A DNA stretch of 35,194 bases, taken from a virus. The notes below the pieces were generated by a model. The model searched no databases. It had not been told where the DNA came from and saw only the letters and a list, made by a program, of their open reading frames with translations. The position numbers and the translations under genes were made by a program. The DNA is taken from IMG/VR virus record IMGVR_UViG_3300031565_000183, positions 1 to 35,194 of that record, one strand, 5' to 3'. Shown piece by piece: positions 19,633 through 35,194 of this stretch (the first letter of the stretch is position 1; each line of letters opens with the position of its first letter).

Positions 19633-20148
19633 ATGAGACCATATACTCAAGGGCTTTTGGACGGTATGTGTGGCGTCTATTCGGTTATCAACGCAATGCA
19701 CGCCATTGATCATATGCCTGAAAAACGAGCAGAAACAATGTTTCGGATAACAATTAAAAAGTTTTCTAGCATATTTCCCACAGCATTCTATGACGGGATT
19801 AAATTCGATGAACTTCTTACAATTACACGCTGGATTGCAAAAAAATATGTCAAAAATAAGCTAAAATGTTACAAACCTGTTAGAAAAAAAGTCGATATTA
19901 GAGGTTGGTTCGATATACTGGAACAAGTATTAGATAAAGATAAAACTGCCGTTATTATCGGCCTAGGATATCCGGAAGATCATTGGAGCGTCTGTGTCGC
20001 TGTAGAACGCAAAGGAAATGGACGTTATCTTGTACTGTCAGATTCATATTTTGGTTTAAAGAGATTTAGAGAATCCAAATTCTCTATGTTTAAGAAAAAA
20101 GACAAAATTCAAATTGACCCATTCGAAACTATTGTAATTGGAAAATAA
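19633..20148 (+). CDS. Papain-like cysteine peptidase candidate
   Basis: A 171-residue protein whose N-terminus QGLLDGMCGVYSVINAM has the cysteine-helix look of papain-fold enzymes (Gln6 for the oxyanion hole, Cys13 nucleophile). The usual partners follow in order: His117 in PEDHWSVCVAV and Asp137 in LVLSDSYFG. There is no signal peptide, so it would act inside the host cell. Possible jobs include cleaving a host or phage protein, or transferase activity, since the fold also makes crosslinks. The catalytic triad is by eye; the family is not identified more closely. It probably has its own leaderless transcript. Confidence 0.7.
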   Translation: MRPYTQGLLDGMCGVYSVINAMHAIDHMPEKRAETMFRITIKKFSSIFPTAFYDGIKFDELLTITRWIAKKYVKNKLKCYKPVRKKVDIRGWFDILEQVLDKDKTAVIIGLGYPEDHWSVCVAVERKGNGRYLVLSDSYFGLKRFRESKFSMFKKKDKIQIDPFETIVIGK

Positions 20149-20149
20149 C

Positions 20150-20380
20150 ATGAATACGGAAAAAGAAAATATGATGCGAACATTAGCCGATAAACCTAGG
20201 CTTGCATCAGCTTGGTGTAGTATAGGAATCCACCGATGGCAGCGTTGGAGAAGTTATAAAGAAGATATAATTGAAACTGATAAGCTTGGATATTCTGTAA
20301 TCCAACAACTTCGAGAATGTGATGATTGTGGATTGAAACAATTATCATATACTAACGCTAGTCACAAAAAAATCACCTAA
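20150..20380 (+). CDS. Small zinc-binding-type phage protein (76 aa)
   Basis: Contains C23-x4-H28 followed by WQRW, and then C57-x2-C60-G, a spacing fit for a small zinc knuckle. I start at 20150, right after the previous stop; an in-frame start at 20138 lies inside the upstream gene. The pattern 'WCSIGIHRWQRW...ECDDCGL' recurs in small phage proteins, as far as I remember. It closes the operon before the hairpin at 20384. Confidence 0.65.
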   Translation: MNTEKENMMRTLADKPRLASAWCSIGIHRWQRWRSYKEDIIETDKLGYSVIQQLRECDDCGLKQLSYTNASHKKIT

Positions 20381-20383
20381 TCT

Positions 20384-20425
20384 AAATCAATGACTTATAA
20401 GACCCCCAACATAAGTCATTGATTT
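20384..20425. repeat. Hairpin A upstream of moxR-like gene
   Basis: A perfect 15-bp inverted repeat (AAATCAATGACTTAT at 20384-20398, its complement at 20411-20425) with a 12-base loop. A near-identical stem occurs at 22634-22678. The right arm runs into a short T-rich stretch, so it could end transcription of the upstream genes. The AT-rich stem could equally be a protein-binding operator. Confidence 0.75.
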
Positions 20426-20443
20426 TATTAATGTTAATTGGGC

Positions 20444-20472
20444 TTGACACTAACTTCAAACTCCAGTAAAAT
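20444..20472 (+). promoter_or_regulatory. Strong sigma-70-like promoter for moxR-like gene
   Basis: TTGACA (20444-20449, full consensus), 17 bases, TAAAAT (20467-20472). A short leader of about 34 bases with AGGAG follows. It sits 18 bases after hairpin A. Confidence 0.8.
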
Positions 20473-20512
20473 ACTAGGGTATTAAACGTTAACCTACTAG
20501 GAGAATAAACGT

Positions 20513-21607
20513 ATGGCTCAAGCACAAGAATCCACCCGCACAGTAAATCCCAAAGAAGCTGAGGCGGCAATTATGACTTGTTTTAAGTCGAAGCGTCCGC
20601 TGTTTCTGTGGGGACCTCCGGGAATCGGTAAAAGCGAAGTGGTAGACACTATTACTACGCGCCTCGAAGGCTTTATGATTGACCTGCGTTTGGGTCAAAT
20701 GGAGCCGACGGATTTGCGTGGAATTCCGTACTTTAACAAAGAGCTGGGGCTCATGGACTGGGCACCGCCCATCGACCTTCCTTCGGAAGAACTTGCTGCA
20801 AAATATCCGATCATTGTATTGTTCCTCGACGAGATGAACGCGGCAGCGCCGTCGGTGCAAGCGGCTGCCTACCAGCTTATTCTTAACCGTCGTATCGGAA
20901 AATACTTTCTCCCCAAAAACGTTGTTATTGTTGCAGCGGGTAACAGGGAATCGGATCGAGGCGTTACTTATCGCATGCCTAGTCCGCTTGCCAACCGTTT
21001 TGTTCACCTCGAAATGAGGCACGATTTTGATTGCTGGCAGGAATGGGCAATTCATCATCGCATCAACAACGACGTTATTGGTTACCTCAGCCACAATAAA
21101 CAAGATTTGTTCGACTTCAAAGCGACGTCGGCGAGCCGGGCGTTTGCTACTCCGCGTTCGTGGGTCTTTGTAAGTGACCTCATTGACGACGGTGTCGGCT
21201 ACGATGTCCTGACCAATCTGGTTGCTGGTACTGTTGGCGAGGGCCTTGCTGTTAAGTTCATGGCGCACCGGAAATTGGTCGAAGACCTTCCGATGCCGAT
21301 GGACATTCTTGAGGGCAAGGTTACGGAACTCAAAGTCAAGGAGATCAGCGCAATGTATTCGCTTACGATTTCCATGTGCTACGAACTGAAGGATGCCAGG
21401 GAGAAAAAGGTCTCCGACGACAAGTGGCACAAAATGATCGATTGCTTCTTCGCGTTCATGATGAAGAATTTCCAAAAGGAAATCGTGGTTATGGGCGCGC
21501 GTACTGCGCTCACCACGTATGACCTTCCGATTAACCCGAAGAAGATGAAGTCCTTCGACGAGTTCCATAAACTGTACGGCAAATATATTATTGCCGCTAA
21601 CCAGTAA
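20513..21607 (+). CDS. MoxR-type AAA+ ATPase
   Basis: A 364-residue AAA+ ATPase. Walker A is GPPGIGKS at 34-41 and Walker B is IVLFLDE at 101-107. Sensor 1 is in VIVAAGNRESDRG (N144), and an arginine-finger-like PLANRFVHLEM lies near 157-168. MoxR-type ATPases work as chaperones with a VWA-domain partner, here encoded 1.1 kb downstream. Its DNA is markedly richer in G and C than the phage background (one 60-base line at 20821 is about 63% GC against about 30% in the polymerase gene). It also has its own promoter and terminator. Target complex unknown. Confidence 0.92.
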   Translation: MAQAQESTRTVNPKEAEAAIMTCFKSKRPLFLWGPPGIGKSEVVDTITTRLEGFMIDLRLGQMEPTDLRGIPYFNKELGLMDWAPPIDLPSEELAAKYPIIVLFLDEMNAAAPSVQAAAYQLILNRRIGKYFLPKNVVIVAAGNRESDRGVTYRMPSPLANRFVHLEMRHDFDCWQEWAIHHRINNDVIGYLSHNKQDLFDFKATSASRAFATPRSWVFVSDLIDDGVGYDVLTNLVAGTVGEGLAVKFMAHRKLVEDLPMPMDILEGKVTELKVKEISAMYSLTISMCYELKDAREKKVSDDKWHKMIDCFFAFMMKNFQKEIVVMGARTALTTYDLPINPKKMKSFDEFHKLYGKYIIAANQ

Positions 21608-21614
21608 ACGGTTT

Positions 21615-21667
21615 AGGCTAGTTGGGATGGCGTCCTAGTCGCCGGCAGTACCCAACTAGCCTTTCTT
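21615..21667 (+). terminator. Intrinsic terminator after moxR-like gene
   Basis: A 12-bp GC-containing stem (arms 21615-21626 and 21651-21662) with a 24-base loop that can form a second small stem (GGCG/CGCC), followed by TTCTTATT. It begins 7 bases after the ATPase stop codon and leaves a new ribosome site, AAGGAG, for the next gene. Confidence 0.75.
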
Positions 21668-21681
21668 ATTAAGGAGACAAA

Positions 21682-21927
21682 ATGAACCGCAAATCAAAAT
21701 ATATTGTTGTAAAACACGAAGGTTTTGAGATGCCGATTGTCTTTTCTGACCTAATGCAGCATACGCAGGCGGCGGGCCTGCGCGAGGTTATTGGTGCAGG
21801 TTTTTGCTATGTCGAAGCTGGCGAATATGTTTGTTATGGTGAAAGCATTGGTCTACATGTTAAAAGCCGAGGCGAAACAGATGCATCGGTACTGAATGAA
21901 ATGCTTGGAATGATCCGTGAAGAATAA
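21682..21927 (+). CDS. Small unknown phage protein (81 aa)
   Basis: Good ribosome site (AAGGAG) after the terminator. The protein is a likely small beta-rich fold (KYIVVKHEGFEMPIVFSDLM, then GAGFCYVEAGEYVCYGES), with no known motif. Similar short proteins are frequent in tailed phages. It lies between the two cassette enzymes and may be an accessory of them, but nothing shows this. Confidence 0.7.
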   Translation: MNRKSKYIVVKHEGFEMPIVFSDLMQHTQAAGLREVIGAGFCYVEAGEYVCYGESIGLHVKSRGETDASVLNEMLGMIREE

Positions 21928-21928
21928 T

Positions 21929-22201
21929 ATGAATAAAGACAAACCAATGACCGCTGATGAATTTCTAAGTTATTGGTTGGATCCAATTGACGATGAAGGT
22001 CCTCACATGTCTGCGTTGGATGCATTTGAGGAATCTCTTTTTGAGCATGAATCCCAATATTATAGTGAGTGCGCGATGTTTGGTGATGCCGGTCCAGGAC
22101 AAGGATTGCACGTTTCTAATGGACAACGCGAACTTGAAAATGTTCGTCGTCAAATTAACCGTATCAAAACCTTAAAAGGTGAACTGCATGGCAATGACTA
22201 A
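21929..22201 (+). CDS. Small acidic unknown protein (90 aa)
   Basis: I start at the ATG at 21929, 1 base after the previous stop; the longer in-frame start at 21917 lies inside that gene. The N-terminal half is acidic (LDPIDDEGPHMSALDAFEES); the C-terminal part is a charged helix (RELENVRRQINRIKTLKGEL). It overlaps the membrane-protein gene by 14 bases. Not recognised. Confidence 0.65.
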   Translation: MNKDKPMTADEFLSYWLDPIDDEGPHMSALDAFEESLFEHESQYYSECAMFGDAGPGQGLHVSNGQRELENVRRQINRIKTLKGELHGND

Positions 22202-22631
22202 AAACGAACGTCGATTTTATTGGGCAGTTCAAGACTCATTATTTCTTACCATGACCTATTTGGCTGTGGTTGATGGTATTGGTTGGGCTAACGTTGTTCT
22301 CAATGTGTACCTTTGGATAATGATCGTGTCAATGGGTCTTATTGCATTGGGTACCTGGGCGCATAATTTTCTAGTAGCACAAGGTCATCGGGACAAAAAC
22401 GAACTAACAGTGCTTGATCAACTTCGAGCAAAAGGAGTATCAGTGCCCCCACTGCTTATGGCTTTTGTTGACGCTATTGTTTTCGGTGCTGCATTATCAG
22501 TCGGTTGGTATTGGACCGCTGCCGCCGCATTTAGCATGATTATTTTTGAAATTGTCGTATTTGATAAACGTGCTGTCGCTGCCGCTGTGGCGCGTAAAAA
22601 TGAATTTGAGATGATGGCTGAAAAAAACTAA
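22188..22631 (+). CDS. Small membrane protein, about four TM segments
   Basis: A 147-residue protein with two hydrophobic hairpins: roughly residues 14-60 (SLFLTMTYLAVVDGIGWANV onward) and 88-125 (MAFVDAIVFGAALSVGWYW onward), about four membrane spans. Start chosen at 22188 because AGGTG lies upstream at the right distance. It resembles neither a classical holin nor a transporter clearly. The charged loop between hairpins (HRDKNELTVLDQLRAK) would be on one face. It lies within the moxR-VWA cassette and could anchor that system in the membrane, which is speculation. Confidence 0.7.
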   Translation: MAMTKNERRFYWAVQDSLFLTMTYLAVVDGIGWANVVLNVYLWIMIVSMGLIALGTWAHNFLVAQGHRDKNELTVLDQLRAKGVSVPPLLMAFVDAIVFGAALSVGWYWTAAAAFSMIIFEIVVFDKRAVAAAVARKNEFEMMAEKN

Positions 22632-22633
22632 AC

Positions 22634-22678
22634 AAATCAATGACTTACAAAACCAGTACCGATGTAAGTCATTGATTT
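22634..22678. repeat. Hairpin B upstream of VWA gene
   Basis: A perfect 15-bp inverted repeat (AAATCAATGACTTAC at 22634-22648, its complement at 22664-22678) with a 15-base loop of different sequence from hairpin A. Only the innermost pair differs from hairpin A (T-A there, C-G here), a compensatory change. It lies 2 bases after a stop codon and 16 bases before a consensus promoter. Confidence 0.75.
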
Positions 22679-22694
22679 ACAACAGGATATTTGG

Positions 22695-22723
22695 TTGACA
22701 CTATACCAGATCCACCATATAAT
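22695..22723 (+). promoter_or_regulatory. Consensus sigma-70 promoter for VWA gene
   Basis: TTGACA (22695-22700), exactly 17 bases, TATAAT (22718-22723), a full 12 of 12 match to the bacterial housekeeping consensus. A ribosome site, AAGGA at 22740-22744, precedes the ATG at 22750. Confidence 0.9.
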
Positions 22724-22749
22724 ACTGTTATAACCAATTAAGGACTTAT

Positions 22750-24042
22750 ATGAGCCAAGACACCACAGCAAACAAAAAGATCAAGCTCAACACCTTGTCC
22801 GATACGTTTGATGCAAAGTTGGACGAGAAAGTGCGCGAGCAAATTGTTACTGCGCGAATCAGTATGTTACTGAAAATGCCCTTCCTGGGCAATATTGCTA
22901 CCCGACTTATTCTTGTACCTGCCGATAAATGGCTGCCTACTGCGGCGGTTGATGGTCGGCATTTGTTTTACAATTCCAAATTTTTCCAAATGCTTTCGTT
23001 GCCGCAAACCATTTTCGTAATCGGCCACGAAATTCTCCACGTTATTTACGAGCACATGGATCGTCGCGCACACCGCGATCCTGGGTTGTGGAATATTGCG
23101 GCTGACTTTGCTATTAACGGTGATTTGGTTGAGCACCGAATCGGTGAAAAAGTAACACAATTTCCAATCTGTCTTGATCCGAAATATACCGGTCGAACGG
23201 CAGAAGACATTTATAATGAGCTGTATGAAAACGCCGACAAAATTAATATCCAGGAATTGTTAGATCAATTGTTGGATGAGCATTTAGATCCCGACGGCGA
23301 AGATCCGAGTAAGGGCAAGGGTGGAAACGGTAATGATGATGGTGATGGTGCGGGTAGGCCAGTTCTTAGTCCTGAGGAGCGCCGTAAGGTGCGCGACGAG
23401 ATTAAAGAAGCAATTATGCAGGCATACCAGGCGGCAGGGGCAGGTAATCTTCCGGCGGGTGTAAAGCGATTGCTCGACGAGATGATGGAGCCGAAAATGA
23501 ACTGGCGTGAATTGTTGCGCCAGCAAATTGAAAGCACGTTCAAAAACGATTTTACCTGGATGCGGCCTTCACGTCGAGGCTGGCACCTGGATGCAATTCT
23601 TCCTGGCATGGTGACGGATCCGATGATCGATATTTGTGTATCCATCGATATGAGCGGATCGATTTCCAACGAACAAGCTAAAGATTTCCTTTCAGAAATC
23701 CAAGGTATTATGTCGCAGTTTATGAACTATAAATTACATGTTTGGAGTTTTGATACGCAAGTGTACAATCCGAAAATCTTCACAAGCGATAACGCTGAGG
23801 ACATGACCACATACGAACCTAAGGGCGGTGGTGGCACGGATTTCATGTGTAACTGGGAATGGATGAAAGAGAATGATGTCGAACCCAAAAAGTTCATCAT
23901 GTTTACGGATGGTTATCCGTGTGGTGAATGGGGCGAAGAAAACTACTGCGACAGCATTTTCCTTATCCACAGTGCGCCAGAAATTCACGCACCGTTTGGA
24001 ATCACTGTTCATTATGACGGGGATGTAGGCCAGGTCGATTAA
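22750..24042 (+). CDS. VWA-domain metallopeptidase-like protein, MoxR partner
   Basis: A 430-residue protein. The N-terminal part carries an HExxH zinc motif (GHEILHVIYEH, H93 and H97) with NIAADFAINGD near 115-125 as the likely third-ligand region. A Gly/Asp-rich linker follows (about 190-206). The C-terminal VWA-like domain has a MIDAS, SIDMSGS with D300, S302 and S304, plus GGGGTDF and FTDGYP for the remaining metal contacts. This architecture pairs with MoxR ATPases in bacteria and phages. It shares with the ATPase a high GC content, its own promoter and an upstream hairpin. The 3' end overlaps the next ATG, and its terminator lies inside that next gene. Confidence 0.9.
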   Translation: MSQDTTANKKIKLNTLSDTFDAKLDEKVREQIVTARISMLLKMPFLGNIATRLILVPADKWLPTAAVDGRHLFYNSKFFQMLSLPQTIFVIGHEILHVIYEHMDRRAHRDPGLWNIAADFAINGDLVEHRIGEKVTQFPICLDPKYTGRTAEDIYNELYENADKINIQELLDQLLDEHLDPDGEDPSKGKGGNGNDDGDGAGRPVLSPEERRKVRDEIKEAIMQAYQAAGAGNLPAGVKRLLDEMMEPKMNWRELLRQQIESTFKNDFTWMRPSRRGWHLDAILPGMVTDPMIDICVSIDMSGSISNEQAKDFLSEIQGIMSQFMNYKLHVWSFDTQVYNPKIFTSDNAEDMTTYEPKGGGGTDFMCNWEWMKENDVEPKKFIMFTDGYPCGEWGEENYCDSIFLIHSAPEIHAPFGITVHYDGDVGQVD

Positions 24043-24380
24043 TGAAATATGATGTAATCGAATCCTATGGCATGAGGCGGGTTAAGTTTCTCCCGCCTCA
24101 TTTTTTTGTTTGGAAACTACCTCCAAATACAACTATTAGCTGGAACTATTCCGAAGAATTTAGCAAAGCAAATCCAGATTTTATCGAGAAGGGTAAATAC
24201 AAAAATAAAATAAAAAACCTAATCCATTTTATCGATGAACGTCTTGCTGGTCGATATTATATTAATACTGAGGACAAACCAGATGAATCGGCTAAAGAAG
24301 TAATAATTGGATTCGAAGAGGAAGCTGATCTTACTATGTTTACGTTGTTAACCTCAGTCGATCTTAATAAAGTTTTTTGA
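24042..24380 (+). CDS. Unknown protein containing a terminator in its 5' end
   Basis: A 112-residue open frame that starts on the last base of the VWA stop codon (TAATG). The first 22 codons contain a strong intrinsic terminator (24072-24107), so most VWA transcripts should stop inside it. The remainder (KLPPNTTISWNYSEEF, then LIHFIDERLAGRYYINTED) reads like genuine protein with normal phage codon use. Its 3' end overlaps the ClpP-like gene on the other strand by 17 bases. Expression would require read-through. No family is recognised. Confidence 0.65.
   Translation: MKYDVIESYGMRRVKFLPPHFFVWKLPPNTTISWNYSEEFSKANPDFIEKGKYKNKIKNLIHFIDERLAGRYYINTEDKPDESAKEVIIGFEEEADLTMFTLLTSVDLNKVF
24072..24107 (+). 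terminator. Strong intrinsic terminator inside a coding frame
   Basis: A 10-bp GC-rich stem (arms 24072-24081 and 24092-24101), a 10-base loop and a run of seven T ending at 24107. It lies 30 bases after the VWA stop codon and is the clearest terminator in the window. Confidence 0.9.
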
Positions 24381-24933
24381 TTTTATCCGCGATGTGGTAT
24401 TTCACTGCATCCTTAGCATTCAACCAAACATCATTAGCAGGAAGAAGAATTTTCCGTATTGTTGCCTCTGGCAATCCAGTACAGGCTTTGTAATGCATAA
24501 GCATTCGTTCAGTAGTCATTTCAAATTCTTTTACTGTAGCGAATAGTTCGTGTTCTTTTCCGGACGATCCCCAACTGTATTGGTGAGAAAGAATACTAGT
24601 ATTTGGAGTTATTGTTCTAGTACCTTTTGTTCCAGACATAAACGTTAATAATCCGCAGCTGGCAATCATTCCTATTCCAATTGTTCTTACGGGGATCGCA
24701 CTTCCCTTCATTACATCTATTAGGGCAAATGCACTACCTACTTCTCCGCCTGGACTATTAATAAACAAAGTAATTTCTTCCGGTCGATCTACTTTAGGTA
24801 ATAAATTTTTTTCTAAAATAAATTCTATTACCGGCTTAGTTGATCGATTATTAAAATCATCACAAAAATAAATCATATTATGTTTCCATAATAATTGACC
24901 TGGTTGTGGAAAGTCTGTAGTTGGCTTATTCAT
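24364..24933 (-). CDS. clpP: ClpP-like serine protease
   Basis: A 189-residue ClpP-fold protease. The family order is clear: ITLFINSPGGEVGSAFALID (oxyanion region), GMIASCG with Ser92, ILSHQYSWG with His117, and LPANDVWLNAKDAVKYHIAD with Asp168. The triad is complete. I prefer the ATG at 24933 over the earlier TTG because AGAGAA lies just before it. In phages ClpP-like enzymes can act as head-maturation proteases or alter host proteolysis; no capsid gene is near, so the second is at least as likely. It is the last gene of the minus-strand block. Confidence 0.9.
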   Translation of the reverse strand: MNKPTTDFPQPGQLLWKHNMIYFCDDFNNRSTKPVIEFILEKNLLPKVDRPEEITLFINSPGGEVGSAFALIDVMKGSAIPVRTIGIGMIASCGLLTFMSGTKGTRTITPNTSILSHQYSWGSSGKEHELFATVKEFEMTTERMLMHYKACTGLPEATIRKILLPANDVWLNAKDAVKYHIADKIKKLY

Positions 24934-24965
24934 TATTTTTCTCTGATTCAATAAAATTTTCCATA

Positions 24966-25811
24966 CTAAACCGCCATCGGTGCCACTATTGCTGCATGAG
25001 ATTGGTAGCCATGCAATACAACATCTTTCATTGTAAATGCATCTATATCAATTACATGTGAATTAATCCAAAGAATTGGACTAGGAAATGGATCCCGTAG
25101 CATTTGTGCCTTAGCATGTTCTATATGGTTAACATATAAATGAAGGTCTCCGGAGGTATGAATTAACTCTCCTACCTCCACATTGCACACTCGCGCCAAC
25201 AAGTGGGTAAACAATGCATAGGAAGCAATATTAAATGGCAAGCCTAAAAACGCATCAACCGACCTCTGATACATTTGGCAACTAAGTTTTCCGTTTGCTA
25301 CATAAAATTGTGCAAAACAATGACATGGGGGTAGCGCCATCTGTTCAATCTCACCAGGATTCCATGCGGTAATAATATGGCGCCTGCCGTGGGGATCTTT
25401 TTTAATCCCATCTATTAGATTTTTAAGCTGGTCAACATTCCTACCATCAGCAGCTTTCCACTGTCTCCATTGTACTCCGTACACCCGTCCTAGGTCGCCG
25501 GGAAATTGTGCCCTATCTTGCCAGTACACTGACTCTGCATTAGCGGTCCAAATTGTAGTCTTTTCAGAATCTCTATGACCATGTAAAATTTCTCTAAGTT
25601 TTCGTTCATCTCCGGAACCGGAAATCATCCAAAGCAATTCACTAACTATCGCGTTCCAAGCTAATTTTTTAGTTGTTACCGCTGGGAACCCGTCAGCTAA
25701 ATCAAATCGCATTTGATAGCCAAATACGCTTATGGTGTTAGTGCCCGTCCTATTAGGCGTCTCTACTCCATTGTCTAAAATATGTTGTAAAGTATCTAAA
25801 TATTTTTTCAT
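24966..25811 (-). CDS. thyA: Thymidylate synthase
   Basis: Makes dTMP from dUMP with methylene-tetrahydrofolate. The 281 residues show nearly all ThyA landmarks: RTGTNTISVFGYQMRFDL, DLGRVYGVQWRQW, the nucleophile Cys163 in ALPPCHCFAQFYV, the dUMP-binding segment QRSVDAFLGLPFNIASYA, and DLHLYVNHIEHAKAQ. Asn194 in LPFNIASYA is the residue that selects dUMP; dCMP hydroxymethylases have Asp there, so this is a true thymidylate synthase. A TATAAT-like box lies upstream (25823-25828) without a good -35. FolE on the other strand could support folate supply. Confidence 0.97.
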   Translation of the reverse strand: MKKYLDTLQHILDNGVETPNRTGTNTISVFGYQMRFDLADGFPAVTTKKLAWNAIVSELLWMISGSGDERKLREILHGHRDSEKTTIWTANAESVYWQDRAQFPGDLGRVYGVQWRQWKAADGRNVDQLKNLIDGIKKDPHGRRHIITAWNPGEIEQMALPPCHCFAQFYVANGKLSCQMYQRSVDAFLGLPFNIASYALFTHLLARVCNVEVGELIHTSGDLHLYVNHIEHAKAQMLRDPFPSPILWINSHVIDIDAFTMKDVVLHGYQSHAAIVAPMAV

Positions 25812-27096: not shown

Positions 27097-29139
27097 TTAA
27101 ATTATTTCTTTGTACCCAAGTTTGATAAATTTATCATCTAGCCACGTCCAAGAATAACTCAATTTGAGTTGGTTTAAGTCGCCGTGCACCTCATTAAAAT
27201 ATCCAATTGCATCATCAACGCCGCGCTTAACCCAGTCAGCATTCGCGCCATTTATTCTGTTTTTCCATGTACTCAATCTAAATTCAGTTTGCTTATTTGG
27301 TTGTATTTTTTGATAATACATTAATTTGATGATCTCTCTAAATGCTGTTCTCCAAGCAATAATTGGATCTATATTAAATCGTCCAATTCCAGAAATAATT
27401 GGAAGTACTTCATGTGGTTTTGTTTGTGTAAAATCTAAATCGACTTGATCGGTTTCTAATACTAATTTCTTATTGTAGGCTACTAACGCCATGTGCCCAT
27501 ATACTAATTTATTAACTGGATTAATAGCGGAAAAGATATAATGCTTTGGATTTTCTAGGTAGTCGGGTTGCCAAGACCAATCAAAACCCTTATCTACTTC
27601 CAGCTTGGCGTTAACCCCAAAGAACCATTCAGTTTGGCTTTGCTGAGCTGCTTTCTTTAATGCTTCACTTCTACCGTCGATATTAGAAATACAAGAAACG
27701 TTTCTATTAGAGGTCTTTATTAAATGTGCTAGTAATTCTTCTGCATTAGGTTCATTATTGCTGATATAAATTATATCTAATTCTTGTTCTTTTAATAAGG
27801 TATCAGCTTTAACAATATACGGATAATCATATATGTTCGTAATGTTGTATTTCTTTATTGCTTTAGGGATTAACATTGTACTACCTGCGTCACTTAAAAT
27901 AACAACATTCTTACTATCCCATTCGTTTAAATTTTTAACTATATTATCATAATCTACTTTTAAAGCATGTGGATGAACCACGGCATGATTGTTTGTAATT
28001 GCCAATTCATTAATTGTGGAAACTAAATCATCTTTACCGTGATAAATTAGCACGTTTATTTTATCCTGCACTAACTCTGTTGTAGTTATGTCCTTAACAA
28101 AATTTATGTTTGGTAATTTAAATACGTCATTACACCAACTACTATTCATTAAGTCATATTTGTTTAAGAAACAAGTTTCAGACCAATTATTCCATTGGGA
28201 TCCGAATATATGATTCATATGTTTTTGCCAGGTATCTCCGTGCCAAGTAAAATCAAAATCATCATAACATGTCTCAGAACTAATATACCAAAACTTGTCT
28301 GTAGCTGATTTACTGGCACAACGTCGCATAGTATCTAGCGTCGTATTAATAAATCTAGTTCGTTGTATATACGGAAAACGTTCCTTAAGCATACTAAAAT
28401 GGTATTCATTGCTAGCATTCCCTTTGTCAACATAGAAAATATCCGCTGCATGACTAACTTTAGTTCTCATTATATCTACGTATTTCACCTCTGTTGCACC
28501 AGGCATCACATAACGGGGGCCGCCATCTTTTTGCCATTGCGAACTAAATTGATAAATGTATGGTTGGTCGTCGTATCTAGTTGGTAACCAACTAAAGTCA
28601 AAGTCGTCCGATACTCCGTCGGGAATTTCCCAATTAGTTTTATCTTGTTTTAACCTACACCGAAGTTCATTAATATATTTTCTATTAGTAGCACCCAGTA
28701 CATGATATTCTAATGTTGGCATTACTTCAGCAGGATACCATTGGTTGCCGAACACATAGATATATGGCTCGGGATCATCTAAACTAGGATGCCAACTAAA
28801 ATCGAAACTGTAAGTATCAATATCGTGTAGCACTCGCCAATTGAAAAATGTGGGTGGCGTTCTAACCTCATTCCAAGCAAATACTTCATCTACCTTTTCA
28901 GTCAGGTATAGGTAGACACCTATATCTCTACTCCATTGATCTGAAAATCCATGATTATAGGTACGTTGTGAAACTATAGGCTTCCAATGGAAATCAAAAT
29001 TTTGTAAATCATAATAGCATCTATCAATAATCCAAAATCGTTCTGTTTTACTTTTTTTTGCTGCGTCAGAAATTGAATTTGCCTTTGTTTCAAATTCGAA
29101 TAGATTAGGCTTTTCATTTAGATAAAAAATGTCGTACAT
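27097..29139 (-). CDS. Multi-repeat glycosyltransferase-like phage protein
   Basis: A 680-residue protein built of repeated units. The core 'FWxI...DFDFxWxP...YIYxFxxQW' recurs near residues 36-69, 111-134, 179-202, 283-316 and 505-546. Units including 'DIFY...AAKKSKTERFWIID' and 'DIIYISNNEPNAEELLAHLI' with KKAAQQSQTEWFFGVNAK resemble GT-A nucleotide-sugar-binding folds of a family I recall from marine phages. The last unit continues with NPVNKLVYGHMALVAYNKKL and a C-terminal helical domain. A clear DxD metal motif is not visible. It lies downstream of a sugar-activation pathway, which fits a sugar-transfer role, but catalytic activity is inferred. There is no ribosome site. Confidence 0.7.
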   Translation of the reverse strand: MYDIFYLNEKPNLFEFETKANSISDAAKKSKTERFWIIDRCYYDLQNFDFHWKPIVSQRTYNHGFSDQWSRDIGVYLYLTEKVDEVFAWNEVRTPPTFFNWRVLHDIDTYSFDFSWHPSLDDPEPYIYVFGNQWYPAEVMPTLEYHVLGATNRKYINELRCRLKQDKTNWEIPDGVSDDFDFSWLPTRYDDQPYIYQFSSQWQKDGGPRYVMPGATEVKYVDIMRTKVSHAADIFYVDKGNASNEYHFSMLKERFPYIQRTRFINTTLDTMRRCASKSATDKFWYISSETCYDDFDFTWHGDTWQKHMNHIFGSQWNNWSETCFLNKYDLMNSSWCNDVFKLPNINFVKDITTTELVQDKINVLIYHGKDDLVSTINELAITNNHAVVHPHALKVDYDNIVKNLNEWDSKNVVILSDAGSTMLIPKAIKKYNITNIYDYPYIVKADTLLKEQELDIIYISNNEPNAEELLAHLIKTSNRNVSCISNIDGRSEALKKAAQQSQTEWFFGVNAKLEVDKGFDWSWQPDYLENPKHYIFSAINPVNKLVYGHMALVAYNKKLVLETDQVDLDFTQTKPHEVLPIISGIGRFNIDPIIAWRTAFREIIKLMYYQKIQPNKQTEFRLSTWKNRINGANADWVKRGVDDAIGYFNEVHGDLNQLKLSYSWTWLDDKFIKLGYKEII

Positions 29140-29321: not shown

Positions 29322-30335
29322 CTAGATCAATCCTATTCTATATTTATCTAATGCGGCAAACACCACTGGTCGCATTTGCTCAATTATCTTGTTTCCTAAT
29401 ACATCTTGTAGTTCGATACCATATATTGAATTAAAGCAATAGTGACCACTTGCAATAAACTTGGTTTGATCATCAATTACCTCGGGGGTGACCCAACGTT
29501 TCCAATATTCTTTAGATAATACATAGTCCCTAAAATTATTATATATTAATCCTAAATCTTTTCCTAAATCATGAATTATCGATGTTTGAATGCTTCCTAG
29601 TTGTGGGGCTATATTCATGGCATCAATACCATGACGCTTATGCCGTGCTATCTGCTTCTGACTCAGATAATCTGCATTGTGTTCTTTAAATAATAAATTA
29701 TAACTATGAATTAAGTCTGCGGTGCCTCTAGCAATAATTTCATTAAATTGTCCTACCTGAGTATGTTTAGTTAGACTTCCTGTCTGACTAACAAAGAATT
29801 TTACATTAGGTTTAAAGCGCAATGCAAAATCGAGTTGTGCTTTTAAACGGGCTAGACTATCTTCTAAGTCTTCACCTGTATTATCTTCACTACCAAATTC
29901 AATCATAATATTCGGATTTGCTGTCTTAGTAATATTAATTAAAGTGGCAGCTATCCTTTCTTGATGTTCGGCATTAACCTTACTTATATCAATATGAATG
30001 AGGTCGAAACCGTGTTTGATGTCAGCTAAAATAGTCTCAATACAACGATCAGTCGCATATTGTAGAGAGTGATTTTTATCTAAATCACTGAAAAATGGTC
30101 CACAATGGTCACGACATATTAAGACTCGGTCTGGATCATACCATTTATGATTTTTTACATGCGCGGTCAATGAACCAATCGTATACGCATATCCACTATT
30201 CACATCAACTTGATTCCTGCTAGCAATCAACATAATGGGAAAATTGTGAAGATAACTATATTCTAAACACAACTCTACAATACTCGGACTCATTGTGCCA
30301 ACACCTAACTTAAATTTTGCAAATTGCATTAGCAT
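29322..30335 (-). CDS. GatZ/KbaZ-like class II aldolase family protein
   Basis: A 337-residue TIM-barrel protein. LIASRNQVDVNSGYAYT (about 36-52) aligns with the 'EATxNQVNQxGGYTG' signature of tagatose-1,6-bisphosphate aldolase subunit GatZ/KbaZ, and RVLICRDHCGPFF (about 70-82) with the 'LxGDHLGP' strand. IHIDISK (near 114) and IMIEFGSED (near 148) are further barrel strands. Known members act on keto-sugar phosphates or support the catalytic GatY/KbaY subunit; no such partner is in the window. Its neighbours are a KdsC-like phosphatase and a nucleotidyltransferase, so here it may form or cleave a C-C bond in sugar synthesis. It overlaps the phosphatase gene by 26 bases. Confidence 0.8.
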   Translation of the reverse strand: MLMQFAKFKLGVGTMSPSIVELCLEYSYLHNFPIMLIASRNQVDVNSGYAYTIGSLTAHVKNHKWYDPDRVLICRDHCGPFFSDLDKNHSLQYATDRCIETILADIKHGFDLIHIDISKVNAEHQERIAATLINITKTANPNIMIEFGSEDNTGEDLEDSLARLKAQLDFALRFKPNVKFFVSQTGSLTKHTQVGQFNEIIARGTADLIHSYNLLFKEHNADYLSQKQIARHKRHGIDAMNIAPQLGSIQTSIIHDLGKDLGLIYNNFRDYVLSKEYWKRWVTPEVIDDQTKFIASGHYCFNSIYGIELQDVLGNKIIEQMRPVVFAALDKYRIGLI

Positions 30336-30798
30336 TAATTACCGTTTCAATATACAAACATGCATCTAATACTGCCCCGGATCCGGCGGCACTTTCTGTT
30401 ACATAATTAGCAGCAGCTTTTGCTTCTTTTCGAGCACTTATTGGTGCGATTCCTAATTTAACTTTGGCCAATATTGGGGCATCATTATATCCATCCGCGA
30501 TATAAGCAGTAGTATCAAACTCACAATTCTGTTCAAACCAATGCATTCTAGTTTCTTCAGGAACGAGTTGTAATTGTTCTTTATTAAAGTTCCAATCTAC
30601 TACAATCCTAGCATAAGTAATGGGCCAACCAGTTATATCTGCGGTGATAAATGTGATGTCAGTAAGATATTGCTTGATGATCTTGATTCCATCTTTATCA
30701 TGCGGGCCAAATACCTTGAACATTTTACCATGTTTATTGTACAAGATATGCCCGGTATTAAGAACTCCGTCTACATCAATCACTAATTTGTTAATCAT
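30310..30798 (-). CDS. KdsC-like HAD phosphatase
   Basis: A 162-residue HAD enzyme without a cap domain, as in KdsC (KDO-8-phosphate phosphatase), a tetramer. Motif I is VIDVDGVLNTG (D8, D10). The KdsC-like segment KVFGPHDKDGIKIIKQYL is followed by FITADITGWPI (motif II region). Motif III/IV is YIADGYNDAPIL (D102, D106). The tail YVTESAAGSGAVLDACLYI also matches the family. It would dephosphorylate a sugar-acid phosphate made by the neighbouring aldolase. The start overlaps the preceding stop (ATGA). Confidence 0.9.
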   Translation of the reverse strand: MINKLVIDVDGVLNTGHILYNKHGKMFKVFGPHDKDGIKIIKQYLTDITFITADITGWPITYARIVVDWNFNKEQLQLVPEETRMHWFEQNCEFDTTAYIADGYNDAPILAKVKLGIAPISARKEAKAAANYVTESAAGSGAVLDACLYIETVINANAICKI

Positions 30799-31496
30799 AT
30801 AGAATTGATTTCTTCCTGTGTAAGTTTGATGCCAGTAAACAATTCAAATTGATATTTGAACTGATGCCTATAAAATTCTACACCTGCTACATATTTAATA
30901 TTATTTACTTCACACTGTTTTTTTAATTGATTAGACGTGGAAGATATTGCTAAATCTATTACACACGATACATTAGGCAATAATTTAAATGGACTGTCTG
31001 GCACAGAAGTACCAAAACTAGTACAATTAATTACAGTATTAACAATCTTATGGCGGTCCGCCCAATTACCATTAGTTCTACTAAAAACAGTGGCTCGAGA
31101 ACCTAAAAGTTTTTTGAACATCGAACCCATGGCGCCGTCTCCTAAAATTGATATTCCTTCTGTTTCAGAAATACCTTCAATAACACCAATAGCTCCATAG
31201 TAATCGGTGTTGTATCCGATCATCTTATTCTTAATAATCGTAACCGTATTACAACTTTTAAATTTTACAACTAAAGGAAAAACTTCATCTAGATAGTCTA
31301 TAATAGTTTTCTTAAAAGGCATACTAATACTAAAACCATCTATATTGCTATTCTTAACTTCAGCTATACACCCAACTATATCCTCGCATTTTTTAGCCGT
31401 ATAAGTATAAGGCAATCCTTTGAGTTTAAAAAATTTACTGTAATTAGTCTCCCCAAATGTACCAGGATATTGACTTAAACTAATAAAGGTTTTCAT
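30795..31496 (-). CDS. Shikimate dehydrogenase (AroE)-like oxidoreductase
   Basis: A 233-residue two-domain protein. The N-terminal substrate domain ends with GFSISMPFKKTIIDYLDEV (matching 'GxNVTxPxKxxxxxxLD', Lys62) and SCNTVTIIKNKMIGYNTDYYG (matching 'AVNTxxxxxxxxxGxNTDxxG', Asp98). The NAD(P) domain follows with ISILGDGAMGSMF. Both catalytic residues are kept. The 'SLS' serines that hold the shikimate carboxylate are replaced (GTFGETNYSKFF at 12-23), so the substrate probably differs. I chose the ATG at 31496, 17 bases inside the preceding gene; an earlier start at 31547 would lie fully within it. The stop overlaps the phosphatase ATG. Confidence 0.8.
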   Translation of the reverse strand: MKTFISLSQYPGTFGETNYSKFFKLKGLPYTYTAKKCEDIVGCIAEVKNSNIDGFSISMPFKKTIIDYLDEVFPLVVKFKSCNTVTIIKNKMIGYNTDYYGAIGVIEGISETEGISILGDGAMGSMFKKLLGSRATVFSRTNGNWADRHKIVNTVINCTSFGTSVPDSPFKLLPNVSCVIDLAISSTSNQLKKQCEVNNIKYVAGVEFYRHQFKYQFELFTGIKLTQEEINSI

Positions 31497-32994
31497 GTAA
31501 TAATTTGAGTCCCATGTACCAAAGAATTTGATCAAACGGCTGTTCATGTAATGGAGCCATATTCAGAAAAATAATAGGAACAAGTAGTTCTATTTTATTT
31601 ACGTCATGTCCATTAGATATTGCATATTGAATCAAATCATTTTGATAGATTAATTGATTTGTGATGCTTGGTATTTTCAATGAAACCTCTGTTCCAGAAA
31701 TAGACATATCAAATTGGCCGTCTTTGATCTTGGAATAATCAATGACTAACCCCCCATACAGTTTAGCTAGATCATAGTATTTGTCCCCTAGAAATATTAA
31801 ACCACTAAAGTCTGGTCGCCAATCAATTAGAACAAATTCTCCAGCAGGATTAATAATAATATTGTCAAACTGTAGATCCCCGTGCATCACGGTTGGTGTC
31901 ACTGTTGTTGCCAGATAGTTCCAATCAATTTTATCAATAAGTGTTTCACTAATTTGAATACCATCTATACAATCAATTTTAGGTAGATTGGGATATTTCT
32001 TTTTGAATTGCTGAATGCGTAATAGTGTCTTGTCACGATAAAATGCAAACGATTCTGCGCGTATGTCACCTGACCTAGGAAGCCATAGATTTGAATTTAA
32101 CCAATCTAACAATTTGGGAAATGTGTTCGAATCATCATGTGCATACATTGTTTTACCGGGAAATAAATCATATGCTAACCAATTATGAGACTGCTCACAA
32201 CAGTTGGGAAAAACTGCCGGTGACGCCATATACTTTGCTAATTTTATAGGCGCAATTGAATCATTTTTCCACCATTTCACAACTCGATTATTGCAAATGT
32301 AAGTAATCTCATCCTTTTTAGCAAAGTCAAATTTTTGACTACTATTAAATGTTTCTCTGTAAATATCTGGGTTGCCAAAATCTAGCCAAGAATAAAGAAA
32401 CGCGACATCACTGTGTTTACGAAAAGCATAGACAATCTCATTACTATTAGAAAGAATAAGACGATTAAAAAATTCCTCATGATCATGAATATACATTAAT
32501 CCAGTAAAGGCGACGCAGTGTTCTGTTGCAGCAACTTTGAACATGATGTCTAAAATCTTAGAGTTCTCATCAATCTTAAACGTTGTATACAAAGAAGAGA
32601 GTGATTTATCTACTTGTCTAACAAAATAGCAATCAGAATCCTTAAAGGTTATAGGCTCATCGAAGTATGTGTCACATGGTACATACCAAAATGATTCATT
32701 TACTATTGAAGCGCATTTTTTTAGGGTGTATCCCGGTCCACTCTTTTCACTTGACCAATCATCAATTGGTACAAACACAATATTATGATCTGCAAATGCA
32801 AGATTACAAAAATCTACAATCTGTTCTCCAAAGTGTCCAATTGGAATTAAAAACTGTGTATCAACTGGAAATTGATTAATGATATGGGCTAATATTGGTT
32901 TTCCTTTATATGGGAGCAAAGCTTTATTAAGATCCGTTGTAAACGGATTCATTCTGCTCCCCACTCCAACCGTAGGAATGATAACAGTTGTCAT
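31480..32994 (-). CDS. Sugar nucleotidyltransferase-kinase fusion
   Basis: A 504-residue two-domain protein. Residues about 1-225 are a sugar-nucleotidyltransferase: IIPTVGVGSRMNPFTTDLNK with the GxGxR...K signature, then ALLPYKGKPI, and an acidic metal site in WYVPCDTYF. Residues about 255-504 form a choline/aminoglycoside-kinase-like phosphotransferase, with the Brenner motif VMHGDLQFDNIIIN (near 368-381) and VLIDWRPDF (near 387). The protein would phosphorylate a sugar or cyclitol and then attach a nucleotide, as a two-step activation. It is translationally coupled to the cupin upstream (ATGA overlap) and to the AroE-like gene downstream. The substrate cannot be read. Confidence 0.85.
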   Translation of the reverse strand: MTTVIIPTVGVGSRMNPFTTDLNKALLPYKGKPILAHIINQFPVDTQFLIPIGHFGEQIVDFCNLAFADHNIVFVPIDDWSSEKSGPGYTLKKCASIVNESFWYVPCDTYFDEPITFKDSDCYFVRQVDKSLSSLYTTFKIDENSKILDIMFKVAATEHCVAFTGLMYIHDHEEFFNRLILSNSNEIVYAFRKHSDVAFLYSWLDFGNPDIYRETFNSSQKFDFAKKDEITYICNNRVVKWWKNDSIAPIKLAKYMASPAVFPNCCEQSHNWLAYDLFPGKTMYAHDDSNTFPKLLDWLNSNLWLPRSGDIRAESFAFYRDKTLLRIQQFKKKYPNLPKIDCIDGIQISETLIDKIDWNYLATTVTPTVMHGDLQFDNIIINPAGEFVLIDWRPDFSGLIFLGDKYYDLAKLYGGLVIDYSKIKDGQFDMSISGTEVSLKIPSITNQLIYQNDLIQYAISNGHDVNKIELLVPIIFLNMAPLHEQPFDQILWYMGLKLLHENLY

Positions 32995-33437
32995 TCGCCA
33001 TGCTCACTTAAAATTTTTCCATGAGCACGCCCAGAATCATCTTGTAAACGAATTACGTCATCAAGCTCAGGAGTGCTAACTTCAATAAATTCCAGATTCG
33101 TTTCAGATACCATCCTATGAACATAACAAGCATCGATATTTACAACTACGCCTGGCGTTAACGAAATCTTCGCCATAAAATATTTTTCATACGCCCTTAC
33201 AGTGTCGATGTGCATTCCTACCCCATCAAGAAAAGCTTGTACATCTAGTGGCTTATAGCTTTTAAGTAGGTATCCGGAGCCAGATAAAATATAGTTTGTT
33301 TCACTTTTGAAACGATGTACTTGCAAACTAGTTTTATTATTAGCAAGGAGCGTAATATGTTTGATAGCATACGGAGTTTCTTGACCGTCTGCGATCCACA
33401 ATTCATTTCCCCACGGTTTAGATACGATCTTAGCCAT
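32991..33437 (-). CDS. Sugar-phosphate cupin (mannose-6-phosphate isomerase type II-like)
   Basis: A 148-residue cupin. KPWGNELWIA opens it like type II phosphomannose isomerases and related sugar cupins. QVHRFKSETNYILSGSGYLL carries motif 1 (His, Glu-type metal ligands), and VHRMVSETNLEFIEVSTPEL carries motif 2. I start at 33437, where GGAGA and GAGG precede the ATG; an earlier ATG at 33452 is possible. It overlaps the SGNH gene by 8 bases. As the first enzyme of the sugar run, an isomerase or epimerase role is likely but inferred. Confidence 0.8.
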   Translation of the reverse strand: MAKIVSKPWGNELWIADGQETPYAIKHITLLANNKTSLQVHRFKSETNYILSGSGYLLKSYKPLDVQAFLDGVGMHIDTVRAYEKYFMAKISLTPGVVVNIDACYVHRMVSETNLEFIEVSTPELDDVIRLQDDSGRAHGKILSEHGE

Positions 33438-34188
33438 GAACCTCATCTCCATATATTTCTATCAATTTACCATATAGATATTTCGCCCATTCAGAATGAC
33501 CCTGAATCATTGGATGTAAACAAGAACTCAGAGGGATTTTATTCTCATTCATGAAATTACTAAATGTAGGATTAGTAAGCATTTTATTGGTTCGAATTTT
33601 ATTAATTGTGAATGTATGTGGTTCTTCATTGGTGGGATGCCACATTGTGGATAAACTATCAAAAAATAAGTACTTTACTCCTAAATTATCTAATGTATTG
33701 GATAGGAGAAATTTTTGCTGGAGACAATACATAATTGCAATTTGCTCATCGTACATATTAGCTACATAAGTTTCATGAAATTTATCCAGGTCCTGTAAAA
33801 TTCCAGTAGATGCCTGAGAGTTGCTTTGATGCTCTGAGAATTTTTGACTAACATTAAACCTATACCAGCCCGTGGTGTTTTCATCAGCATTAACGTATAC
33901 CTCATTACGACATGGGGTTGTCCAGCCAATAACAATTAGTAAACTGGATAACTGTTCGGGATCTTGCCTCATTAAATAATCACAAGTAGTACGCACTATT
34001 CTAGCATTACTGCCGCCTCCCAGTGAATCATTTAGGCAAGTATATTTTAGAAGTCTCGCCAGCTTAGCTGGCCATGCAAAATGGACTTGGTCTGTTAATT
34101 TTCTTGAATGGTGTTTGAGGATCGGATCTTTATTTATTCCATTTCCGTAAGTCCAACTACACCCATTAGCATATAAAATTTTACTCAA
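33430..34188 (-). CDS. SGNH-hydrolase-like protein, second of three
   Basis: A 252-residue protein. ILYANGCSWTYG puts the nucleophile serine at residue 11, followed by GGGSNARI (glycine/asparagine blocks) and HPMIQGHSEWAKYLYG near the end with the His of the SGNH dyad. The first ATG is too far inside (residue 73), so the TTG at 34188 is the necessary start; it overlaps the previous gene's stop by 8 bases. SGNH enzymes remove or transfer acyl groups, often on polysaccharides. The gene sits beside sugar genes, fitting polysaccharide decoration. Target unknown. Confidence 0.75.
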   Translation of the reverse strand: MSKILYANGCSWTYGNGINKDPILKHHSRKLTDQVHFAWPAKLARLLKYTCLNDSLGGGSNARIVRTTCDYLMRQDPEQLSSLLIVIGWTTPCRNEVYVNADENTTGWYRFNVSQKFSEHQSNSQASTGILQDLDKFHETYVANMYDEQIAIMYCLQQKFLLSNTLDNLGVKYLFFDSLSTMWHPTNEEPHTFTINKIRTNKMLTNPTFSNFMNENKIPLSSCLHPMIQGHSEWAKYLYGKLIEIYGDEVHG

Positions 34189-34978
34189 GATTCATACTCT
34201 CTATTTTTGCAATAAGGCGCAGAGCAGTATCTTGATGTCCTTCTTCGGATGTATGCTTGCTGCCGATTGAGTCTGGAAAACGCTCAGTCAAATCTCCCCA
34301 ATCCTGAAACATCAAGTCATTGCTATCTATGAATCTTTCAAATTCTTTAATATCAGTGGTTAAAACTAAACAGTTAATTCCCCTGCGTTTAATATACATA
34401 TATGCCTGCAAGATCATTCCTATATCATAGTTCTTTTTGATTGAATGGTCAAAGATTTCTAAATAATAATCCAAGATCAATTTTAGCTTTCTATTAGATT
34501 CAGAATCGAGTCTAGCATAATATGTATTATTAGGGAATAGAGTTCTTGTTTTAATACAATCATCGATTCCTCCTATCTGTTCGGATAGCATCCTGGGATT
34601 ATATTTTGGATTTCCGTGTAAAAAATAATGCATTGGTGAATTATGATGTGGGAGAGTCTCATGATGTGGTGGATATTGATGATAATTCAAATTTTCCAAT
34701 GAGTGAGGTAGAATATGCTTTGGTGACCCCTCAGAAAACCATTCAATGCGATCATACGAGGTTAGTCCAAGCACGATCAAATGTGGTTTTTCTGGCATGT
34801 CTGCCGCATACATTCCCTGTAAAAATGTCGTGTAATTGCTCGCGCTACCCCTAGCCAATCTGATCAATTCCCAACTGAAATGATTTGCTACAAGCACGCC
34901 ATACGGTTGGGTATGTAGGTTTACACAACCTATTCCATAGTTGTAACTGTCGCCACACACCACTAATTTCTTAGACAT
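34181..34978 (-). CDS. SGNH-hydrolase-like protein, first complete copy
   Basis: A 265-residue protein. LVVCGDSYNYGIG (GDS with Ser11), GSASNYTTFL (block II/III) and KHTSEEGHQDTALRLI (C-terminal His) match the SGNH layout. It is divergent from the next copy, so the pair is not a recent duplication. Start at the ATG at 34978. A GTG at 34999 is in frame and overlaps the preceding stop; the ATG has no ribosome site but the protein fold begins right there. CTAAATA, a T4-late-like box, ends 8 bases before the ATG. Confidence 0.75.
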   Translation of the reverse strand: MSKKLVVCGDSYNYGIGCVNLHTQPYGVLVANHFSWELIRLARGSASNYTTFLQGMYAADMPEKPHLIVLGLTSYDRIEWFSEGSPKHILPHSLENLNYHQYPPHHETLPHHNSPMHYFLHGNPKYNPRMLSEQIGGIDDCIKTRTLFPNNTYYARLDSESNRKLKLILDYYLEIFDHSIKKNYDIGMILQAYMYIKRRGINCLVLTTDIKEFERFIDSNDLMFQDWGDLTERFPDSIGSKHTSEEGHQDTALRLIAKIESMNLE

Positions 34979-34989
34979 GAGATATGTAT

Positions 34990-35194
34990 TTAGTTGCACT
35001 GGGAAGACCTAATATAATTGGCTAAAAATTTAGCCCACGATTCGTGGCTTTCTGGACTAGGATGTATGCCGCATAATCTGATTTTTTCGTCCACGTTGTC
35101 ATAAATGTAACTCTTGAATGATCCATTGGTAAGGTCTTTGTTTACATACTGTAATGGATCCACACTATCCCATTGCATAAGCAGAGTATCTTTA
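34990..35194 (-). CDS. SGNH-hydrolase-like protein, C-terminal fragment at window edge
   Basis: Only the last 67 residues are inside the window; the frame is open to the edge. CGIHPSPESHESWAKFLANY matches the C-terminal His block of the two SGNH genes downstream, so this is a third member. The rest lies beyond the window. Its stop is 11 bases before the next ATG. Confidence 0.7.
   Translation of the reverse strand, partial: KDTLLMQWDSVDPLQYVNKDLTNGSFKSYIYDNVDEKIRLCGIHPSPESHESWAKFLANYIRSSQCN

Follow-up and report, generated by a model that had tools for sequence, protein, structure and literature searches.

We have analysed a viral DNA of 35,194 nucleotides (IMG/VR record IMGVR_UViG_3300031565_000183, positions 1–35,194; the whole stretch is called the window here), and we describe a five-gene cassette on its minus strand. 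Its probable role is to supply a glycosyltransferase with a nucleotide-activated rare sugar, or with a polyol formed from such a sugar. An earlier note, made from the sequence alone, had picked out five overlapping genes of named sugar-type families in this region. All five open reading frames (ORFs) are present and intact at 29322–33452, consecutive ones overlap by anything from a few bases to a few dozen, and their families were recovered by Pfam and NCBIfam matches:

29322–30335, minus strand: GatZ/KbaZ-like (PF08013) TIM-barrel enzyme, predicted metal-dependent ketose(-phosphate) epimerase; 337 amino acids; PF08013 E=4.6e-10
30310–30798, minus strand: KdsC/YrbI-like HAD phosphatase; 162 amino acids; TIGR01670 E=8.5e-17
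30795–31547, minus strand: AroE-superfamily dehydrogenase of the HI0607 (SDH-L) type; 250 amino acids; TIGR00507 E=4.4e-25
31480–32994, minus strand: fusion of a nucleotidyltransferase and an APH-type kinase; 504 amino acids; PF01636 E=7.5e-6, PF12804
32991–33452, minus strand: PMI-like sugar cupin; 153 amino acids; PF01050 E=1.5e-5

Families were assigned with Pfam, NCBIfam (TIGR/NF) and PHROGs profiles. Scores lie above the Pfam gathering thresholds for PF08013 (39.2 vs 26.7 bits), PF08501 (44.1 vs 27 bits), PF01636 (26.3 vs 23.2 bits) and PF01050 (25.6 vs 23.6 bits), and below the threshold for the nucleotidyltransferase domain (PF12804, 21.4 vs 27). The PHROGs labels were uninformative: a generic hydrolase, a weak kinase match and 'cysteine dioxygenase' for the cupin. 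The likely start of the cupin is the second ATG, at 33437, which agrees with the N-terminus of its relatives. The AroE-like gene probably begins at M18 (31496), an internal ATG that matches the start of its relatives.

Conservation of the cassette

A scan of viral contigs seeded with the GatZ-like protein alone gave 71 loci, and tblastn with the other cassette proteins showed that almost every locus extending far enough upstream has the remaining genes as well. For the counts we used the 35 distinct viral loci in which 4.5 kb or more precede the GatZ-like gene. All of them have the fusion and the AroE-like gene (35/35 each); 34/35 have the cupin, and 13/35 the KdsC-like gene. The gene order (cup-ntk-aroE-(kdsC)-ald, where ntk is the fusion and ald the GatZ-like gene) and the placement on a single strand have no exception. 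The reverse scan, seeded with the fusion profile alone, yielded 60 distinct loci and agrees with the first: 27 carry cup-ntk-aroE-ald, 13 more have KdsC added, and 13 have cup-ntk-kdsC-ald without AroE. The rest comprise two ntk-aroE-ald loci at contig ends, one with the epimerase on the opposite strand, one that is cut off and three with the fusion alone. Dozens of divergent contigs share these genes in one order, which is far beyond chance. The five genes are conserved as an intact, co-inherited cassette in which the KdsC-like gene is dispensable (13/35). We looked for KdsC elsewhere in 13 viral records without it at the locus, which may be fragments, and did not find it. Co-occurrence of the five families outside the window had been set beforehand as the test of the earlier note's proposal; it is observed in both sets of viral loci and in cellular clusters (see below).

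Cassette-bearing phage contigs reach 453 kb. Among GenBank phages there are almost no close relatives: the AroE-like protein has three weak matches, and the epimerase matches four Listeria-labelled records and Marine virus AG-345-E15.

The GatZ/KbaZ-like protein

The AlphaFold model of the GatZ-like protein is confident, with a predicted local distance difference test score (pLDDT) of 94.7. When the model was compared with known structures by VIA-align, the best matches were GatZ/KbaZ-type proteins (PDB ID: 2fiq, Z 32.2, 2.8 Å over 327 residues; PDB ID: 3txv, Z 30.1). Tagatose 4-epimerase (Z 27.2) and the tagaturonate epimerase UxaE (26.0) came next, and fructose- and tagatose-bisphosphate aldolases reached at most 23.2. 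The protein also misses the gathering score of these class II aldolases (PF01116, 17.9 vs 25.5 bits). GatZ and KbaZ have been shown to be C4 epimerases that interconvert fructose-6-phosphate and tagatose-6-phosphate, and a zinc-dependent retro-aldol mechanism that uses Asp87, His88, Glu171 and His257 has been proposed for them (PMC11907403). The fold ranking together with this demonstrated activity argues for an epimerase rather than an aldolase. The earlier designation as a GatZ/KbaZ-like aldolase is therefore corrected to a probable epimerase on the GatZ/tagatose 4-epimerase side of the superfamily.

Residues D76, H77, E146 and H219 are invariant in 40 of 40 GatZ-like relatives from viruses, archaea and bacteria. 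In a profile alignment to 2fiq, D76, H77 and H219 align with the catalytic Asp87 and the metal ligands His88 and His257. E146 lies on a predicted strand (residues 144–148) and is a candidate counterpart of the metal ligand Glu171. R75 is likewise invariant. Glu44 and Lys279, which are conserved across the GatZ/KbaZ family (PMC11907403), are replaced here by I37 (I/V) and N241 (40/40). The cassette protein thus shares with GatZ/KbaZ the Pfam family, the fold (Z 32) and the Asp-His and His residues of the metal site. It differs in being about 80 residues shorter, in its 16–18% identity to the solved relatives, in the two replaced residues and in a context that is biosynthetic, not catabolic. Judged by its sequence, it belongs to a related but distinct subfamily and is not itself a GatZ. 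A more fitting reading is a metal-dependent ketose(-phosphate) epimerase whose substrate would be a different one.

The AroE-like, KdsC-like, fusion and cupin proteins

The best PDB match of the AroE-like protein is HI0607 (PDB ID: 1npy). Residues K79, N100, N113, D115 and Q233 are invariant in 56 of 56 relatives, and K79 and D115 are the predicted catalytic Lys/Asp pair. The earlier note had allowed that the dehydrogenase and the GatZ-like enzyme might be degenerate; the invariance of the predicted active-site residues in both (56/56 and 40/40) speaks against this. In AroE, SxS is the carboxylate-binding motif. Here it is replaced by an HI0607-type N-terminal SLSxxPGxxG segment, which makes shikimate an unlikely substrate, and the protein falls well below the TIGR00507 equivalog cut-off (88.3 vs 200.2 bits). 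There is a precedent for a keto-sugar reductase in the AroE family, 5-ketofructose reductase (PMC7954740), and its structure (PDB ID: 7cok) is among the PDB matches. The cassette protein has in common with HI0607-type proteins and 5-ketofructose reductase the AroE-superfamily fold and the catalytic Lys/Asp, and HI0607 shares an N-terminal SLSxxPxxFG motif. It differs from them in lying in a nucleotide-sugar cassette, far under the AroE equivalog cut-offs.

The KdsC-like protein retains the HAD residues D8, D10, T52, D102 and D106 (invariant 15/15) and misses both KdsC cut-offs (TIGR01670, 61.5 vs 106.95; NF007019, 53.4 vs 208). A simple KDO-type (3-deoxy-D-manno-octulosonate) pathway was considered and rejected, since no KdsA/KdsB-type genes are seen at the locus. 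The nucleotidyltransferase profile matches structures of RmlA, LicC and HddC (PDB IDs: 3hl3, 1jyk and 5xhw, the last being HddC) and also inositol-1-phosphate cytidylyltransferases (PDB IDs: 2xme, 4mnd). In the fusion, G10, G12, R14 and K24 of the nucleotidyltransferase and H371, D373, N378 and D391 of the kinase are invariant in 22 of 22 relatives. ARAGORN places a tRNA-Arg (CCT) at 32039–32115 on the minus strand; this is probably a false positive, as it lies inside the conserved coding sequence of the fusion. In the cupin, the QxH..E..H metal set (Q44, H46, E51, H112) is invariant (19/19). All five families keep their catalytic residues.

Fusions, variant operons and cellular copies

The GatZ-like alignment gave 43 loci when run against 84,980 species genomes. 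Complete five-gene clusters occur in Woesearchaeota (L083), Omnitrophota (L084) and Buchananbacteria (L082), which means that the set is not phage-specific. Four of the five genes are found in a Pelagibacteraceae locus (L088), and partial sets in other archaea and bacteria. The cellular copies adjoin glycosyltransferases, flippases, methyltransferases and nucleotide-sugar dehydratases, that is, they lie in surface-polysaccharide loci. Cells seldom carry the set: a strong fusion match is present in 5 of 279 genomes of one archaeal phylum and in 2 of 197 of the Pelagibacter family.

In the tree of GatZ-like proteins, a supported group unites 56 viral rows with a single Pelagibacter row on a long branch. 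This main viral group adjoins a group of Woesearchaeota, candidate phyla radiation (CPR), Omnitrophota and Pelagibacter sequences. Two further viral rows (L077, L153) fall on the Bacteroidota side, so viruses gained the GatZ-like gene at least twice or exchanged it. Bacteroidota epimerase copies (L100, L108, L115) adjoin unrelated genes, such as succinate dehydrogenase, and give no clue to a pathway; L113 is an exception.

Several gene fusions link the cassette members to one another and to glycan genes. The cupin is fused to the nucleotidyltransferase-kinase in L113 and L116 and to a GT2 glycosyltransferase in L084, and KdsC is fused to a second nucleotidyltransferase in L078 and L081. Other operons vary in the front part of the pathway. 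An SDR protein replaces AroE beside the same fusion in L078, L208 and L209. A phosphoheptose-isomerase (GmhA)-like protein and a split transketolase take the place of the epimerase and AroE in L206 (Pelagibacteraceae), and a ribulose-phosphate 3-epimerase and a SIS isomerase do so in L207 (an archaeon). Sinorhizobium has DegT and HAD genes after those for the epimerase and cupin, with DegT in the place of AroE and no fusion. The variant operons mostly retain the kinase-nucleotidyltransferase and the phosphatase. We searched for viral relatives of the L206 nucleotidyltransferase-kinase and found none. The proteins standing in for the epimerase act on ketose phosphates. This favours the same reading of the GatZ-like protein, and a reading of the phosphatase, kinase and nucleotidyltransferase as a module for activation like that of the GDP-heptose route.

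Downstream glycosyltransferase and other neighbours

Three genes flanking the cassette in the window recur near it elsewhere:

27097–29139, minus strand: 680-amino-acid protein with a C-terminal GT-A glycosyltransferase-like domain (from structure prediction), candidate transferase
33430–34188, minus strand: DUF6071 protein with SGNH-like motifs, recurrent neighbour; PF19547 E=9.3e-15
34181–34999, minus strand: SGNH-like protein, recurrent neighbour; no Pfam match, own profile

AlphaFold prediction of the C-terminal half of the 27097–29139 protein followed by Foldseek showed that about 230 C-terminal residues adopt a GT-A-like fold. The best Foldseek matches were mostly GT-A glycosyltransferases, with some GT-A-like nucleotidyltransferases, and the match to the GT-A profile is 7e-28. 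In 39 of 47 viral loci, a homologous GT-A domain is encoded no more than 8 kb downstream of the cassette. Of the earlier note's proposal, activation is supported by the kinase-nucleotidyltransferase fusion, and transfer by this downstream gene and by the cellular copies in polysaccharide loci. A carbamoyltransferase (PF02543/PF16861) is found within 3 kb downstream in 19 of the 47 viral loci (e.g., L015:11053-12525) and also near the cassettes of L078, L102 and L077, of which L078 and L102 are cellular. The DUF6071 profile matches near the cassette in 29 of 34 viral loci and the SGNH-like profile in 24 of 34. The neighbourhood looks like one in which a glycan unit is made, transferred and decorated. 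Many loci, for the most part those without KdsC, have a small SnoaL-like gene between the fusion and AroE (L022:8933-9268 and about 55 others); it is also present in the cellular loci L090 and L113.

Some relatives of the 27097–29139 protein are very long, at 1385–2014 amino acids (L006:12634-16791, L009:12662-17614, L069:12619-18663), and consist of numerous diverged repeats that carry DFDFSWHP-like motifs. Viral cassettes often have radical SAM proteins as neighbours (L046:11123-13306, L015:15823-18119), one of them with a B12-binding domain. A family of about 363 amino acids without a Pfam match follows the epimerase in the AroE-less viral loci (L184:9024-10115, L180:8985-10076); a cellular relative lies near the cassette of L116 (13776-14918).

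Proposed pathway and alternatives

From these data we infer the substrates, the order of the reactions, the product and the acceptor as follows. The 29322–30335 protein would epimerise a ketose phosphate, for example fructose-6-phosphate, by zinc-dependent retro-aldol/aldol chemistry. The AroE-like reductase (30795–31547) would handle the remaining or shifted carbonyl, and the KdsC-like phosphatase (30310–30798) would remove the original phosphate, a task that a host phosphatase may take over where the KdsC gene is missing. The kinase domain of the fusion (31480–32994) would then phosphorylate another position, and its nucleotidyltransferase domain would add the nucleotide. The PMI-like cupin may act late, as an isomerase, an epimerase or in anomer control. 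Finally, the downstream GT-A protein (27097–29139) would transfer the activated unit.

Several observations weigh against this scheme. No product or activity has been reported for any cassette member. KdsC is missing from 22 of the 35 viral loci, and AroE is missing from 13 loci, all of one clade. Without equivalents of Glu44 and Lys279, the substrate of the GatZ-like protein would not be fructose-6-phosphate, or it would be bound differently. If the cupin is an aldose-ketose isomerase, it would be redundant beside the GmhA-like isomerase in L206. The GT-A domain of the 27097–29139 protein has lost a DxD-like motif that its shorter relatives retain.

Two known systems follow a similar logic. 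The DNA of phage RB69 carries arabinosyl-hydroxymethylcytosine (arabinosyl-hmC), and an eight-gene module has been proposed to make UDP-arabinose (PMC6024577). The RB69 proteins ORF053c (nucleotidyltransferase, 1.3e-5) and ORF052c (kinase, 7.4e-13) match the fusion profile in hmmsearch and are, by hhalign, co-linear with its two halves as remote homologues. They are flanked by the genes for a SIS isomerase (ORF055c) and a protein with HAD motifs (ORF051c). We considered ORF051c as a cupin and rejected this; the cupin profile does not match, and HAD motifs are present. Both systems are phage-borne, with a co-linear nucleotidyltransferase and kinase and with a sugar-phosphate enzyme and a HAD-type gene alongside. 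In RB69, however, the nucleotidyltransferase and kinase are separate genes, the front end is arabinose-5-phosphate isomerase-like, the acceptor is DNA, and no GatZ-like epimerase, AroE-like enzyme or cupin is seen beside them. Conversely, none of the ORFs annotated near the cassette in the window, which is a fragment, is a SIS-type isomerase. Since ORF053c and ORF052c match the fusion in order, the cassette is best seen as a variant of the phage sugar-donor module. The GDP-heptose pathway (GmhA, HddA, GmhB, HddC) has the same sequence of ketose phosphate, kinase, HAD phosphatase and nucleotidyltransferase. HddC is among the nucleotidyltransferase matches, and the L206 nucleotidyltransferase-kinase sits with a GmhA-like isomerase and a transketolase. 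The cassette differs in its APH-type, fused kinase, its front end of epimerase and reductase, and its extra cupin; GmhA is not in the window cassette and occurs only in the variant L206.

The kinship with RB69 raises the alternative that the activated sugar is attached to a modified base in the phage's own DNA, as has been proposed for RB69 with its arabinosyl-hmC. We regard a DNA-modification donor as unlikely. The thymidylate synthase near the glycan cluster (PF00303, 24966–25811, minus strand) has the canonical PFNI asparagine and gives no sign of a dCMP hydroxymethylase, so nothing in the window, a fragment, points to hmC. In addition, the cellular copies lie in polysaccharide loci, and the phage neighbours (carbamoyltransferase, radical SAM, SGNH, GT-A repeats) resemble glycan work.

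Alternatively, reduction of a ketose phosphate could give an alditol phosphate, whose activation would yield a CDP-alditol in the manner of CDP-ribitol. A reductase, AroE-like or SDR, accompanies the epimerase nearly always, the nucleotidyltransferase resembles the LicC-type cytidylyltransferase 1jyk, and APH kinases act on alcohols. An alditol phosphate could, however, be activated directly, which would make the phosphatase and kinase superfluous and leave the cupin without a clear role; we find such a route improbable.

In a carbocycle (cyclitol) route, the aldolase-fold enzyme would close or open a ring, the AroE-like protein would reduce the ring ketone (or DegT would aminate it), and the fusion would activate the cyclitol. 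It draws on the cyclic acids used by AroE relatives, the DegT gene in Sinorhizobium, the SnoaL-like proteins beside AroE and the inositol-1-phosphate cytidylyltransferase matches. Yet the SxS motif is replaced, the epimerase relatives use open-chain ketoses, the alternative front ends are ketose-phosphate enzymes and not cyclases, and no known cyclase type (dehydroquinate synthase, inositol synthase) was seen. We therefore consider this route unlikely. The last alternative is a catabolic tagatose/galactitol-type operon or a set of degenerate remnants; PF08013 proteins are best known for tagatose and galactitol use, and plasmid relatives adjoin sugar transporters. It is highly improbable and was rejected, because the cassette has no transporter gene and almost always a nucleotidyltransferase, its active sites are all conserved, and the overlapping ORFs stay intact across deep viral divergence.

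The nucleotide-activated sugar thus remains the preferred product. More tentatively, with doubt somewhat outweighing conviction, we propose that the cassette is an undescribed nucleotide-sugar or -cyclitol pathway, common to large phages and ultrasmall archaea and bacteria, in which a GatZ-fold epimerase and an AroE-fold reductase make a sugar new to phages that would coat virions or remodel the host surface. The earlier note had held that the phage pathway may be new. The literature searched contained nothing relevant on the gene combination or on a link between phage carbamoyltransferases and GatZ; the set is not confined to phages, and the RB69 arabinose donor is a described parallel (PMC6024577). 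The route, for which we found no description in that literature, is best seen as a new variant on the phage sugar-donor theme.

The cassette would represent a compact pathway for an activated sugar that is conserved from Woesearchaeota to Pelagibacter and large-phage contigs. A single hypothesis now covers genes that carry the annotations 'tagatose kinase', 'shikimate dehydrogenase' and 'KdsC', and PF08013 proteins gain a likely biosynthetic role. The comparison also points to the RB69 arabinose genes as one form of a modular unit for activation whose ketose-phosphate front ends can be exchanged. Contigs with lipopolysaccharide-type islands were left out of at least one large survey of marine viral metabolic genes (PMC11360552), and this exclusion may be one reason why such cassettes escaped notice.

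Elsewhere in the window, the G+C content rises from about 0.34 to 0.44 at 20001–25000. The genes there include a MoxR-type AAA ATPase (20513–21607), a DUF2201 putative metallopeptidase/VWA protein (22750–24042; HNH endonuclease in PHROGs) and adjoining genes, and the region looks like a separately acquired block.

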